From contig JAKAYA010000007.1 of NCBI GenBank assembly GCA_021826965.1, positions 1 to 64,000 on the forward strand: a stretch of DNA of 64,000 bases. The letters are read 5' to 3'. Source of the DNA: Nitrospirota bacterium (lineage in GTDB: Bacteria > Nitrospirota > Leptospirillia > Leptospirillales > Leptospirillaceae). Positions 34,500 through 39,993 of the stretch are shown in pieces. Position numbers and translations under genes: made by a program. Every line of letters starts with the position of its first letter. The stretch's first letter is position 1. The notes beneath the pieces are model-generated. The model was given only the letters and a program-made list of their open reading frames with translations, searched no databases and was not told the origin of the DNA.

Positions 34500-35300
34500 T
34501 CACTTTCCGGGGCTCTTCAGATGTTCTTTCAGGAAGAATGTGGCGAGATGCCACGCCGGCATGGCCGCGGCCTCCCGATACGAACTCCGCTGCCAGCAGG
34601 AAAACCCGTGGGGAGCTTCAGGATAAACGGCCATGAGGTACGTCTTGTCGAGCGAACTCAGCGTCCGGGCGATCCGGCCGTGTTCGTCGGCCGGAATCGA
34701 TTCATCCTTCGAACCATACAACAAGAGAATCGGAGACGTCAGACGTCCGGATCCGGACAGGACTTCCTTTCGCCCCAGTCCGTCGAGACCTTCGTGACCG
34801 ATGGAACCCCCATAATAGGAAACACCCGCCCTGAAGCGGTCGGGAAATGTCGTCAGGGACAGGAACGTCAGTCTTCCTCCCATGCAAAAACCCATGGCGC
34901 CGATACGGTCTTTTCGAACATCACCCTGTTTTTCGAGCCAGTCCAGGGTCTGCCGGGTCTGTTCCATGACGGCGTCATCCTTCAGTCGGGACAGATGTCC
35001 GATTGCATTTGAGAAGTCCGAGTATTCATAGGTTTTGCCTTCATAAATATCAGGAGCCACCGCCAGAAATCCTTCCGCCGCCAGAAGACGGAGAATATCG
35101 CGGATGTATCCGTTCAGACCGAAGGCTTCCATGAACACGACCATCGCCGGATGGGGTCCCGGGCCTTTTGGCCGGGCAAAAGCTCCTCCCAACGACGAAG
35201 ACAGCTGGCATTCCTCTGTCGAAATTCCGGAAAGGTCCGATGAATGGAAAAAACCGGGTATCTGGTGTGTGTCTGTCATGCGTATGCCCTCCTGAGTCAT
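34500..35300 (-). CDS. dienelactone hydrolase family protein
   Basis: GAMGFCMGGRLTFLSL nucleophile elbow; GSKDESIPADEHGRI; YPEAPHGFSC. Confidence 0.88.
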   Translation of the reverse strand: MTQEGIRMTDTHQIPGFFHSSDLSGISTEECQLSSSLGGAFARPKGPGPHPAMVVFMEAFGLNGYIRDILRLLAAEGFLAVAPDIYEGKTYEYSDFSNAIGHLSRLKDDAVMEQTRQTLDWLEKQGDVRKDRIGAMGFCMGGRLTFLSLTTFPDRFRAGVSYYGGSIGHEGLDGLGRKEVLSGSGRLTSPILLLYGSKDESIPADEHGRIARTLSSLDKTYLMAVYPEAPHGFSCWQRSSYREAAAMPAWHLATFFLKEHLKSPGK

Positions 35301-35364: not shown

Positions 35365-35396
35365 AAAAAACAAAAGACGGGGGAGAATCCCCCGTC
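35365..35396 (-). terminator. intrinsic terminator
   Basis: GACGGGGGA/TCCCCCGTC 9-bp stem (35376-35384 / 35388-35396) followed on minus by TTTTGTTTTTT. Confidence 0.8.
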
Positions 35397-35618
35397 CCTG
35401 TAACCCGGTGGATATTTCACTGGAAGGGCCGGTCGGGCCGGTTTTACTTGCAGAAAAGCAGGGAAGGTGCGCGAAGAAGGCTGGACAACAGAGGAAGGGG
35501 CTCTGGAAGAGTCCACCGGGGAACGAAAGGACAGGCCGGGACCTTCAGCGATGAAGGAGCCCGTCCTGATTATTATCTTTGTTGCACTGGCACGGACCCT
35601 GTCCCGAAGGATCCGTGC
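35365..35618 (-). ncRNA. candidate structured small RNA (or long leader) with own promoter and intrinsic terminator
   Basis: Promoter-like box with -10 TATAAC at 35624-35629. 5' stem GCACGGATCC/GGGTCCGTGC (35590-35618), hairpin 35528-35567, terminator 35376-35396 with T-rich tail. No convincing ORF. Confidence 0.5.
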
Positions 35619-35623
35619 TTTCT

Positions 35624-35658
35624 GTTATACGAAAAGATTCTGGAAAAATGATGGAAAA
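35624..35658 (-). promoter_or_regulatory. putative activated promoter of the candidate ncRNA (shared box copy 1)
   Basis: TTTTCCATCATTTTTCCAGAATCTTTTCGTATAAC on minus; TTTTCCA direct repeat with 11-bp period. Confidence 0.6.
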
Positions 35659-35700
35659 CGCATGAGACCCCCGTCACACTCTTCCGGTTCGGAATCGATC

Positions 35701-37185
35701 TCAGGAAGAAGCCTTTTCTTTCCAAAGCGAAAGGGGAATCGCCAGAATCCAGTCCCAAGAATTTGCGAGATAGATCGTGCCTCCGATAATGGTCGGGCTC
35801 ACAATGCCCATACGGCCTCCGATCCATTTTTTGGCCAATTCCTTCCCGGATTTCGGGTCCAGGACGTAAACGTGGTCCGCCCCGGCGATAAAAAGACGTC
35901 CGTAGGCGAAGGTCGGAGCCGATCGGGCGGAAGAAATACGGTTCCATTTCCAGATCCGTTTTCCGTTTCTCAGGTCCCGGGCTTCGTAGTCCCCGTTGAC
36001 GGGCGAACCCACATAGACGACATGTCCATGGATCATCGGAACACCTCCCTTGAACGCCGGCGGACGAGGACCTCTCCTCATCCTTTTTTCCCAGAGGGTT
36101 TTTCCGGTCTTTGCATCGAACGCTTCGATCACCGGCTGAAGCGTAACTCCTTTTCGGCCCCTTTCCGGTCGAGTGACCGTATCCATCACCACAATCCCTT
36201 GAGAGACAGTCGGAGACACATCCCCCATCCCTGTGTTCGCGGCACCCCGAATCGTCCGGCTCCACAAGACTTTGCCGCTCCTTGCATCCAGGCTATACAG
36301 ACGGGGCGGATCCGCCATCGAAAGATAGATCCGTCCGGAAGAATAGGCCGGACTCGACATGTTGTCGTTTCCTTTCAGGCGAGTCGTCCACAAAGTTTTT
36401 CCCGTCCTGCGGTCGAGTGCATGCACGCTCCCAGACCCCGTGGCAAAATAGAGGGTATTTCCATGAACGGCAGGCGTCGGCATGGCTTCTCCCACGGATC
36501 CATGGTGCCAGAGCAGCTGTCCGGTCTTGCGATCCAGCGCATAAATTCCGTTGTAGCTGACATCCATGCCACGAACCGCGTACCCCGTCGCCCGATAACG
36601 CACGACGTTGGCGAAATTGAACCCGACCCCTCCGGCGGAAAGATATACGAAACGGCCTTTCACGACCGGGTTTCCCATCAGGTGGTTTCCGACCGGACTG
36701 GTCCGCCAGACGAGCTGTCCCGTCCTGGCATTCAGAGCGTAAGCGAACATGTCGTCGGATTCGGCGTAGACAATACCGTCCACGATGGAAACTCCCAGGG
36801 CGTTCCCGTAGAATTGCGTCTGGACCGCCGCCGCTTCGACTTCCCCGTCAGTATGGGTCCCGAAGGGCTCTTTTTCCCGGAGAGGCCATGCGCGCGCTTC
36901 CGCGAATCGCCACCCCACTCCGTCGAAAAACCAGGAAGGTCCGCCCTTCTCTTGGAGAAAGGCGGCGTTATGTTCGGCATTGCCGTTCATCTGCTCCCAG
37001 GATTTCGGACCAAAAAACCGGTCTTTTCCTCTTGGAGCGTTCTGGGGCAGGTAGACCCTGGAGAAGGGACCTCCCGGGGCAACCGGCAAGGGTTCGTCCG
37101 CGGGAGACCTCCCTTGTCCCGACAGAACGAGACAAACAAAAAGAAAAAATGCCGCGACCGTCGAAAGGATCTTTCTTCTTCTCAC
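35701..37185 (-). CDS. secreted PQQ-binding-like beta-propeller protein
   Basis: Signal peptide and repeated docking motifs (TGQLVWRTSPVG, TGQLLWHHGSVG, TGKTLWTTRLKG, SGKVLWSRTIRG, TGKTLWEKRM). GTG start with GGAGG SD. Confidence 0.85.
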   Translation of the reverse strand: MRRRKILSTVAAFFLFVCLVLSGQGRSPADEPLPVAPGGPFSRVYLPQNAPRGKDRFFGPKSWEQMNGNAEHNAAFLQEKGGPSWFFDGVGWRFAEARAWPLREKEPFGTHTDGEVEAAAVQTQFYGNALGVSIVDGIVYAESDDMFAYALNARTGQLVWRTSPVGNHLMGNPVVKGRFVYLSAGGVGFNFANVVRYRATGYAVRGMDVSYNGIYALDRKTGQLLWHHGSVGEAMPTPAVHGNTLYFATGSGSVHALDRRTGKTLWTTRLKGNDNMSSPAYSSGRIYLSMADPPRLYSLDARSGKVLWSRTIRGAANTGMGDVSPTVSQGIVVMDTVTRPERGRKGVTLQPVIEAFDAKTGKTLWEKRMRRGPRPPAFKGGVPMIHGHVVYVGSPVNGDYEARDLRNGKRIWKWNRISSARSAPTFAYGRLFIAGADHVYVLDPKSGKELAKKWIGGRMGIVSPTIIGGTIYLANSWDWILAIPLSLWKEKASS

Positions 37186-37224
37186 GACACACCTCCGCTT
37201 CCGGACAGGACGTTCACCAAAACG

Positions 37225-37249
37225 AAAAAAGGGCACCCCGAAGGTGCCC
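37225..37249 (-). terminator. intrinsic terminator after Spy-like gene
   Basis: GGGCACC/GGTGCCC stem (37231-37237 / 37243-37249) followed on minus by TTTTTT. Confidence 0.85.
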
Positions 37250-37274
37250 CCGTTCAGAGATGATCTTTCCGGCA

Positions 37275-37769
37275 TCACATACGATGGCCGGACTCCATCA
37301 TCCCGTGATGCATCATCATCATTTCCCTCCAGAGTTTCTTGACTTCCTCATACTGTTTTGGAGAAAGGATCAGATGCGCTTTTGAAACCATGTCGGCATA
37401 GCTGTGCAGAATAAGTTTCTTGTGTTCGAGAATCTTGTCCATATCCTTTTTGACATCGGAGGTATCGATCTTCCGGTGCATCATGTCGTTCATGATGTCC
37501 AGATGAAGCACCTTGATGTCCGCCTTTTCCATGATGACCGTCTTGCGGAATGACTCCTTGAGTTTCATGAGCCGGGTGACCTGCTCCCGGGATAGTCCCA
37601 GGCGATCCTGGTTCATCAGGTAAAACGGAATCGGTCCGCCATGCATCATCATGTGCATCATCATCCTGTGATGGTCCATATGGGCTTCCGCTCGAGAAAC
37701 TCCGGAAAAAATGATCATTCCGGCCGCCATCATAAAAACAAGGATCCCTCTGAGTCTGCCTTTCAACAT
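37275..37769 (-). CDS. Spy/CpxP-like periplasmic His/Met-rich protein
   Basis: Signal peptide; MDHHRMMMHMMMHGG; helical LGLSREQVTRLMKLKESFRK and LILSPKQYEEVKKLWREMMMMHHGMMESGH. Confidence 0.8.
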   Translation of the reverse strand: MLKGRLRGILVFMMAAGMIIFSGVSRAEAHMDHHRMMMHMMMHGGPIPFYLMNQDRLGLSREQVTRLMKLKESFRKTVIMEKADIKVLHLDIMNDMMHRKIDTSDVKKDMDKILEHKKLILHSYADMVSKAHLILSPKQYEEVKKLWREMMMMHHGMMESGHRM

Positions 37770-37843
37770 GTCTGCCTCCAGTCATTAATGAATGGGAGTT
37801 TGCAGGAGAGGACCCGGGAGTCCACCCTTTTCGTAGCCCATCC

Positions 37844-37878
37844 TTTATCTCCCAGAATTCTTGAAAAATGATGGAAGA
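37844..37878 (-). promoter_or_regulatory. putative activated promoter of the Spy-like gene (shared box copy 2)
   Basis: TCTTCCATCATTTTTCAAGAATTCTGGGAGATAAA on minus; same box and same spacing to -10 as 35624-35658. Confidence 0.6.
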
Positions 37879-37888
37879 GTGTTCGATC

Positions 37889-39313
37889 TCAGACAGGAAG
37901 CTCGATCAGAAGCTCCGTGCCCGTCTGTTCCAGTCCCGCTTCCTTCAGGTTTCGAACAGATAGCGTTCCTCCGTGTACCCGGACGATCGCTGCCATGATG
38001 ACGGATCCCAGACCGAGGGAAATCTCCGAATTCGACAGGGTCCGGTCGATTGAAAATCGTCTCGTCCGGCGTTTCCCGAAGTTTGCGGCTTCATCCGGTT
38101 CGATGCCCGGTCCGTCGTCGAGCACGCGGATCCTGGCCCGATGAAGACCGTCTTCCGCCTTGATTCGTTCGACCGTCACCTCGATCGAAGTCCGGGCATA
38201 CTTTCGGGCGTTCTGCAGGGCATTTCTGAAGAGCCGCTTGAGAAGAATCGGATCCCCGACGACCTTGACCGGTTTCGGATCCGAAACGAGCCTGCTGAAA
38301 ATGGGGTGGTTTCTTTTCGGATCGTTTTCTTCCCGCTGCTGGATTTCCGCCTTGAGAAGCTGGGTGAGGTCGACCTCTTCGGCCGTTTTTCGATATCGGG
38401 GATCCCCCACTTCCGCGATAAAGAACAGGTCGTCGATCATACGCAGAAAATAGTGGCTCTCCGCCTGAATAATCCGGACGAACCGCTCCCTTTCTCCTTC
38501 GGACATCGCTCCTCCATAGGAGAGAAGCGTATCGGCCGAAGCCCGAAGGCTCGTCATCGGGGTACGCAAGTCATGCCCCAGTTCCTGCAACAGTTCCTGC
38601 CTCGCCCGATCGGTCTCTTCGACGCGCGCTACCAGACGTTCGATCGCGTCTGCCATCCGGTTGAAATCCGTCATGAGGCTTCCCGCCTCGTCGAGGCGGG
38701 TAATCGGAAACCTCGCTTTCAGGTCACCCCGTTCGAGACGTCCGAGAACATCCTTCGCCTGCAGGGATTTTTGTCGAAGATAGACGAACGTGATCAACAG
38801 ACCCGCGAAGGCAGAGGCCGCCATCGTTCCAAAAAGGAAAACCGACTGACCGAGTAGCGTTCTCTGAATGGCGCCGGCGTTGGGAATACGTACCATGAGA
38901 AACGTGGGAACGTAAGAATCCAGCCGGATGATCATGTAATCCGGTGTCAGATGAAACGGCCGATAGTGGGCGACAATGCCGTGAACCTTCCGGGGTTTGA
39001 CCAGCGATTTCCACTCCACCGGAAGAGGACCGTAAGGAGAGGTTTCGGCGTAGATCTCCCCGTCCTGCCCCACGATCCAGACGGGCATGATCCCAAGCCC
39101 CAGCTTGATCCTCATCGCTTCGAAAACCTGAAGAGTCGCCTGATAGGGGCCTCCCCGTTCGATCACGCGCGCCATGAACTTCAGAGCCGGGTTCTGGACA
39201 GGGCCTTCCCCGGCCTCGTTCAGGCTCCGGATTCCTGTAATGATCGCGGCACCCAGAACAAAGGAGACAGAAAGACTGATGAGAAGCAGTTGCAGGAAAA
39301 GTTTTCGGTTCAA
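37889..39313 (-). CDS. sensor histidine kinase (HAMP, HisKA, HATPase)
   Basis: Two TM segments; H-box ELGHDLRTPMTSLRASADTLL; RVLDDGPGIEPDE; LGLGSVIMAAIVRVHGG. Confidence 0.93.
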   Translation of the reverse strand: MNRKLFLQLLLISLSVSFVLGAAIITGIRSLNEAGEGPVQNPALKFMARVIERGGPYQATLQVFEAMRIKLGLGIMPVWIVGQDGEIYAETSPYGPLPVEWKSLVKPRKVHGIVAHYRPFHLTPDYMIIRLDSYVPTFLMVRIPNAGAIQRTLLGQSVFLFGTMAASAFAGLLITFVYLRQKSLQAKDVLGRLERGDLKARFPITRLDEAGSLMTDFNRMADAIERLVARVEETDRARQELLQELGHDLRTPMTSLRASADTLLSYGGAMSEGERERFVRIIQAESHYFLRMIDDLFFIAEVGDPRYRKTAEEVDLTQLLKAEIQQREENDPKRNHPIFSRLVSDPKPVKVVGDPILLKRLFRNALQNARKYARTSIEVTVERIKAEDGLHRARIRVLDDGPGIEPDEAANFGKRRTRRFSIDRTLSNSEISLGLGSVIMAAIVRVHGGTLSVRNLKEAGLEQTGTELLIELPV

Positions 39314-39324
39314 GACAGGCCATC

Positions 39325-39993
39325 CTAGGCTTCCAGGCGATAACCGACGCCATAGACCGGCTGGATCTGGATCCGGTTGTCGGCGACTTCCCGAATTTTC
39401 TTTCGCAGATGGGAGAGATGGGAATCGATGGTACGGTCGTACATTTCCGACTGGTCGGACAAAGCGTCGAGGATCTCCTCACGGGTCACCACTTCCCCGC
39501 CTCTCCGGACCAGAATGCTGAAAATCTCAAACTCCTTCCGGCCCAATGAAAGCTCTGCGCCATCGACCCACGCCAGTCTTTCAGACCGGTTGATACGAAT
39601 GTTCCGGTAAGTCACCCAAGTGCTCCGGTTGGCTTTTCTCTCCACCAGCCGGTCCATCCGCGCCGTCAGTTCATCGAGGCCGAAGGGTTTTCGGATGTAG
39701 TCGTCCGCTCCCATGGACAGGGCGCGGACGGCCGAAGGTTCGTCGGTCCTTGCTGTCACCATCAGGATGGGGACGACAAGGTCCTTCTCACGAAGGCGCC
39801 TGCAAAGCTCGAACCCGGTGCCATCAGGAAGCTGGACATCCAGGAGGATCATGTCGTATTTCCCTTCCGACAATCGCTTCCATCCCTTCTCGAGTGAACC
39901 GACCGAATCGATCGAATATCCCCGGTAAGGGAGACTCATCACGAGGGTCTGGGAAATGACCGGATCGTCCTCGACCAGAAGAACATTCTTCAC
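39325..39993 (-). CDS. OmpR/PhoB family response regulator
   Basis: LLVEDDPVISQTL, YDMILLDVQLPDGTG, RKPFGLDELTAR; winged-helix output domain. Confidence 0.95.
   Translation of the reverse strand: MKNVLLVEDDPVISQTLVMSLPYRGYSIDSVGSLEKGWKRLSEGKYDMILLDVQLPDGTGFELCRRLREKDLVVPILMVTARTDEPSAVRALSMGADDYIRKPFGLDELTARMDRLVERKANRSTWVTYRNIRINRSERLAWVDGAELSLGRKEFEIFSILVRRGGEVVTREEILDALSDQSEMYDRTIDSHLSHLRKKIREVADNRIQIQPVYGVGYRLEA

Follow-up and report, generated by a model that had tools for sequence, protein, structure and literature searches.

The window analyzed here, a stretch of 64,000 nucleotides, lies on a 70-kb contig of an assembly that is 89% complete, from a Leptospirillum-like bacterium (56% GC). 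Read along its minus strand, to which all features below belong, the locus contains, in order, a response regulator gene, a sensor kinase gene, a sequence box (box A), a Spy-like gene with its terminator, a β-propeller protein gene, a second box (box B), and a candidate RNA with a terminator of its own. As the preliminary description had it, the OmpR-type regulator (39325 to 39993) and the kinase (37889 to 39313) are located directly 5' of the Spy-like gene.

The regulator, a 222-aa member of the OmpR/PhoB family and the proposed binder of the boxes, carries a receiver domain (PF00072, Response_reg; E = 1.8e-29) and a winged-helix domain (PF00486, Trans_reg_C; E = 3.3e-19). Its best NCBIfam models were CreB, PhoB, PmrA, and BaeR, each under its cut-off (CreB, 161.8 versus 273; PmrA, 150.4 versus 330; BaeR, 147 versus 380; PhoP scored 117.8 versus 336), and no CpxR model was found among the best 25 NCBIfam matches. 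Judged by its sequence, it is a generic OmpR/PhoB-type regulator, nearest to CreB, PhoB, PmrA, and BaeR. The sensor histidine kinase (474 aa) consists of a transmembrane helix, a short periplasmic sensor domain, a second transmembrane helix, and a standard core of HAMP, HisKA, and HATPase domains; its orthologues were aligned, and its predicted model matched, by fold, kinase cores of the CpxA/PhoR/WalK/HK853 type.

The Spy-like gene (37275 to 37769) encodes a predicted periplasmic protein of 164 aa with Met/His-rich ends. In Pfam, it matched Metal_resist below the cut-off (E = 7e-4; 20.2 bits versus 29.2), while no NCBIfam family matched, and a profile search of PDB sequences with the Spy-like family gave no match. 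Its AlphaFold model is all-helical (mean pLDDT of 80), and the fold matches, with CnrX, NccX, and CpxP among them, were weak, with a best E-value of 0.09 and an identity of about 8%; the CnrX match had a TM-score of at most 0.70 by target length, with CpxP also listed, at E-values of 0.35 or worse. Two LTxxQ-like motifs, LSREQ and LSPKQ, were read by eye. The label Spy-like is apt only in the broad sense of the Spy/CpxP/CnrX fold group; on closer inspection the protein is nearer to a Met/His-rich protein of the CnrX/CpxP type, and its Met/His-rich ends suggest that a metal-linked periplasmic role may be as likely as general chaperoning. A second Spy-like gene in the same genome (G000:C76:57597-58061; L044, L107) is about 61% identical and has no box, and such pairs of Spy-like paralogues are common in the family.

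Between the two units preceded by a box lies the gene for a PQQ/BamB-type β-propeller protein (35701 to 37278), which in fact probably starts near 37187 and not at 37278. It is cut off from the Spy-like gene by the intrinsic terminator of the latter (37251-37229), a 10-pair stem followed by a T-rich tail. A secreted PQQ/BamB-type protein in this position was seen in this genome only, and no β-propeller gene was found beside the two-component system in relatives.

A near-identical box at two promoters

Box A (TCTTCCATCATTTTTCAAGAAT; 37857 to 37878) lies 5' of the Spy-like gene and box B (TTTTCCATCATTTTTCCAGAAT; 35637 to 35658) lies 5' of the candidate RNA, and both promoter sequences of the preliminary description were verified at their minus-strand positions. 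The boxes are identical at 20/22 positions, with mismatches at position 2 (T/C) and position 17 (C/A), and each is followed at the same distance of 7 nt by a -10 element, GATAAA (37844 to 37849) at the Spy-like promoter and TATAAC (35624 to 35629) at the RNA promoter. The latter hexamer and its 7-nt spacing were also present in two relatives; the former is weaker because position 6 is an A, the final T being absent. No sigma-70 -35 match was found at either promoter, the box standing in its place as had been proposed. The direct repeat given earlier, TTTTCCA-N4-TTTTCCA, is exact at the RNA promoter but holds for only 5/7 positions at the Spy promoter (TCTTCCA-N4-TTTTCAA), and the repeat retained between genomes is TTCCA-N6-TTCMA with a period of 11 bp. 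Across 19 aligned sites from the family, the layout expected of OmpR/PhoB-type operators, a direct repeat of approximately 11-bp period shortly 5' of the -10 and in place of a -35, was fixed: the second half-site lies 11 nt from the -10, the box-to--10 spacing is 7 nt throughout, and the -10 retains A2 in 17/19 and T6 in 15/19 sites.

The box is also rare. When the whole genome (2.2 Mb) was scanned with up to 3 mismatches, just these two sites were recovered, both of them intergenic, so the random occurrence within coding regions named beforehand as the refuting case was not seen; a reversed control pattern gave 0 matches in the same genome. With a leave-one-out matrix from which this genome was excluded, box A scored 33.5 bits and box B 30.0 bits, compared to 8.2 bits for the best other site in the window. 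Among GTDB contigs, five exact 20-mer matches were found, two of them in unrelated Clostridia-type records, near the chance rate. Because the assembly is 89% complete, further boxes might have been missed.

A short repeat with two copies only in its own genome could be a product of chance or of recent duplication, with no regulatory role. Such an origin appears extremely improbable, given that the box is kept over five genera while the flanks have diverged, that copies at the fixed -10 spacing stand at different genes in several genomes, and that 100 shuffles of the window gave 0 matches with up to 3 mismatches.

Distribution of the box and the regulator in the family

The comparison covered 21 whole genomes of the family, in which regulator orthologues were called at E ≤ 1e-45. 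An orthologue was present in 12/21 genomes, and the box was found at that locus in 12/12 of these and in 0/9 of the genomes without the regulator (Fisher p = 3.4e-6, kinship ignored), a co-occurrence that is partly trivial and weaker than this p value because box and regulator share one locus. The correlation gains strength from a rearranged locus and from boxes at differing downstream genes. In G004, where the order is box-Spy-regulator-kinase (C38:89209-92130, L097), the box is still 5' of the Spy-like gene. A second regulator copy in G004 (C22:3774-4430, L098) is 61% identical to the regulator of the window and has no adjacent kinase orthologue.

Conservation in relatives, another expectation of the preliminary description, was borne out in 11 genomes, where the box lies 5' of a Spy-like gene linked to the two-component system; for G001 and G013, whose copies of the locus are divided over contigs, linkage was deduced from the kinase 3' end or a shared small open reading frame (ORF). 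The 12th genome with the regulator, G008, has no Spy-like gene at the locus and carries its box 5' of a small ORF. In the 11 Spy promoters, the information per column was low in the flanks and 1.2 to 2 bits across TTCCATCATTTTTCAA; the -10 reached 2.0 bits at A2 and 1.6 bits at T6, with the spacer fixed at 7 nt. Moreover, the recognition-helix motif DRTxDSHLSHxRKK was essentially invariant in 13 regulator sequences, which is what an invariant operator would predict.

Each genome holds many OmpR-family regulators (11 to 29 candidates at first look), and since operators in this family are alike, the boxes might be read by another regulator, the link to the neighboring two-component system being merely positional. 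We regard this as decidedly unlikely: the presence and absence of the box match those of the neighboring regulator perfectly, the box is retained despite the rearrangement in G004 and also where the downstream gene differs, and no box was found upstream of Spy-like paralogues away from the two-component system in the family genomes, including those present in most of the nine genomes that lack the regulator. A shared operator-promoter that would be read by the neighboring regulator is strongly supported by the conserved footprint, the co-occurrence, the invariant recognition helix, and a geometry of class II type. The regulator does not seem to activate its own system through the box, except in G004, where the Spy-like, regulator, and kinase genes form one run; in G000, G003, G005, G010, and G016, inspection of the DNA 5' of the regulator gene revealed no box.

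An intergenic site in G003 and G009 (TTTTCATTCATTTTTCAAGAAT) was dropped as a member of the regulon, as its matrix score was low (approximately 20 bits) and both half-sites were broken in G007 although the neighborhood as a whole is conserved. In the genus of G003 (G003, G009, and G007; L151-L153), a strongly conserved block, GAAGAGCCCGGGGAAAATACACTTTTTT, with more conserved sequence of a non-coding kind behind it, lies near a formamidopyrimidine-DNA glycosylase-like gene; it is probably unrelated to the regulon and perhaps marks another small transcript.

The second transcription unit

Box B precedes a candidate structured non-coding RNA of approximately 249 nt (35369 to 35617), with ends placed from the -10 element and an intrinsic terminator (35373 to 35399) that consists of a 12-pair stem, AGGGACGGGGGATTCTCCCCCGTCTTT, followed by TGTTTTTTCG. 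The 249-nt RNA folded with z-scores of -3.2 and -4.0, which became modest (-0.7 to -2.3) when the terminator was left out. No Rfam family matched at the gathering score, permissive E-values giving only matches far below threshold. Its designation as a small RNA (sRNA) is well supported by the unit's own promoter, strong terminator, structure, and lack of a plausible ORF, while its expression and its targets we infer.

In two relatives, G001 and G005 (loci L094 and L091), the box and a TATAAC -10 lie 5' of a 334-nt unit with a strong terminator in other gene neighborhoods. These two RNAs are equal in length and 73% identical, and their joint alifold z-score was -5.7 against column shuffles, in which dinucleotides were not kept; double-sided changes were not in excess (7 versus a shuffle mean of 5.4). 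BLAST with the 249-nt RNA matched the relatives only at the box and -10, and BLAST with the G001 RNA found G005 only. At their 5' ends, however, the three RNAs can be aligned gap-free over 27 nt, which form one hairpin, as read from the sequences; two of its pairs have changed on both sides (C-G to T-A and T-G to A-T). All three share the same order of elements: the 5' hairpin, a second hairpin, a long-range helix around a pyrimidine-rich domain, and the terminator. The 249-nt and 334-nt RNAs are probably homologous, although this rests on few positions because sequence likeness is confined to the promoter plus the 27 nt of the hairpin.

A gene for a dienelactone-hydrolase-like protein (34500 to 35300) follows on the same strand, and the terminator (35399-35373) precedes its start, so the transcript could be the 5' leader of this gene, an attenuator whose terminator would work as a conditional switch. 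The units in G001 and G005, however, do not stand ahead of a hydrolase gene (the next gene is of the ArsR type in G001 and convergent in G005), and the terminator is strong, with no alternative anti-terminator identified. An attenuator is, therefore, unlikely.

In a third type of arrangement, found in G016, G013, and G008, the box is situated where the kinase gene ends, is separated by the usual 7 nt from a GAGAAT, and is followed by a conserved ORF of 35 to 46 aa (L103:8938-9280 in G016; L099:8042-8240 in G008; L105:1-169 plus the 3' end of L104 in G013). The ORF (MRKSNTLPIIRDVLSIVLLASISISLAALSRIRPGKAL) has one hydrophobic stretch, predicting a single-helix membrane protein; the box in G016 is weak (17.1 bits with the leave-one-out matrix). 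This membrane ORF was absent from the other family genomes. By analogy, it could be an MgrB-like feedback peptide of the kinase, which we regard as possible. The second transcript in the window might thus be the mRNA of a small protein, as in this branch of the family, but this too is improbable, more so than the attenuator: the 249-nt RNA has no ATG-initiated ORF of at least 12 aa, its non-ATG ORFs differ among species, substitutions between the G001 and G005 units fall evenly on the three codon positions whichever frame is read, i.e., they are not codon-like, and the small ORF has no match in G000, G001, or G005.

A non-coding RNA thus remains the preferred reading of the unit downstream of box B. 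The genome contains two CsrA genes (C40 and C6), and a Csr/Rsm-type sponge was considered and rejected despite these, accessible GGA motifs numbering one in G000 and zero in G005 and G001. An Hfq gene was not found in the genome, although one might be missed in an assembly that is 89% complete. The RNA exposes pyrimidine (C/U-rich) runs, with C/U-rich stretches at RNA positions 118-157, and, because Hfq was not found, pairing through these stretches is judged the most likely mode of action.

A two-promoter regulon and its relation to known systems

The comparison across genomes shows a shared predicted operator, a common promoter geometry, an association of both with the regulator, and a transcript unit that is conserved and putatively structured. 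It is quite likely that both boxes are operators of the neighboring OmpR/PhoB-family regulator and that they define a two-promoter regulon, which would comprise a protein of the Spy/CpxP/CnrX group and a structured RNA of approximately 249 nt. According to this model, the kinase (37889-39313) would phosphorylate the regulator (39325-39993), two subunits of which would occupy the direct repeat TTCCA-N6-TTCMA, with its 11-bp period, where a -35 would otherwise lie. We infer binding and activation, rather than repression: the bound regulator would recruit sigma-70 RNA polymerase to the -10 located 11 nt past the second half-site, as in class II activation. The first promoter would yield the Met/His-rich periplasmic protein, which may buffer envelope proteins or bind metal, and the second would yield the RNA with its 5' hairpin, pyrimidine-rich central domain, and terminator. 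The exposed C/U-rich stretches of the RNA would most likely pair with purine-rich, Shine-Dalgarno-like sites in mRNAs and thereby lower the synthesis of some envelope proteins. The presumed signal and role, envelope stress in the preliminary description, are qualified by the Met/His-rich ends of the protein, which suggest metal as much as misfolding.

More tentatively, and with somewhat less than an even chance in our estimate, the minimal regulon may consist of a periplasmic Spy/CnrX-like protein as its most constant target and a lineage-specific second target, namely a new, possibly Hfq-independent structured RNA family in some genera and a small membrane protein, a possible feedback regulator of the kinase, in others; a single slot would then be filled by either of two kinds of small regulator.

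The arrangement resembles several known systems. In the CpxAR system of Enterobacteria, an OmpR-family regulator controls CpxP and Spy as well as the sRNAs CpxQ, CyaR, RprA, and OmrA/B (PMC6737893), and the locus described here would likewise join an OmpR-family regulator to a Spy/CpxP-type periplasmic protein and a candidate small RNA. It differs in its operator, in a regulator that reaches none of the NCBIfam equivalog cut-offs listed, in having only two promoters, and in that Hfq was not found; unlike CpxQ, which derives from a 3' UTR, the candidate RNA has its own promoter, and the lineage is that of Leptospirillum, not Enterobacteria. CreB and CreC were the best NCBIfam models for the regulator and kinase, and the cre tag of the CreBC regulon, TTCACnnnnnnTTCAC (PMC3660660), also has a 5-6-5 structure with an 11-bp period, but the scores were far under the CreB and CreC cut-offs, the half-site and targets are different, and no creD was seen adjacent. 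The box 5' of the 35 to 46 aa single-helix membrane ORF linked to the two-component system in three relatives recalls, in its arrangement, PhoP, which drives the 47-aa feedback inhibitor MgrB (PMC2789325, PMC8404706); the small ORF is absent from the genome studied here. The Spy-like protein, for its part, resembles metal-responsive proteins of the CnrX/ZraP type in its best Pfam match (Metal_resist), in several of its top fold matches, and in its Met/His-rich ends, but it falls under the Pfam cut-off, shares only about 8% identity in the fold matches, and is a putative metal binder. The sRNA RepG acts through a C/U-rich loop in a bacterium that lacks Hfq. RepG of Helicobacter pylori is described as targeting G-repeats in mRNA leaders (PMC8295292), and the candidate RNA is like such sRNAs in its C/U-rich stretches, with no sequence relation.

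Control of a Spy/CpxP protein and sRNAs by one regulator is thus already known from Cpx, whereas the lineage, the operator, the RNA, and the small-ORF variant are new; our literature search brought up no publication in which a two-component system controls small RNAs in Leptospirillum relatives. These bacteria are iron-oxidizing acidophiles of importance in bioleaching and acid mine drainage. For them, the analysis yields a concrete regulon, with a regulator, an operator, two promoters, and one new candidate RNA. It also suggests that the coupling of a periplasmic chaperone-like protein to a small regulator, both controlled by a single response regulator, is found again far outside the Enterobacteria, and that either an RNA or a membrane peptide can serve as the small partner in such a coupling.
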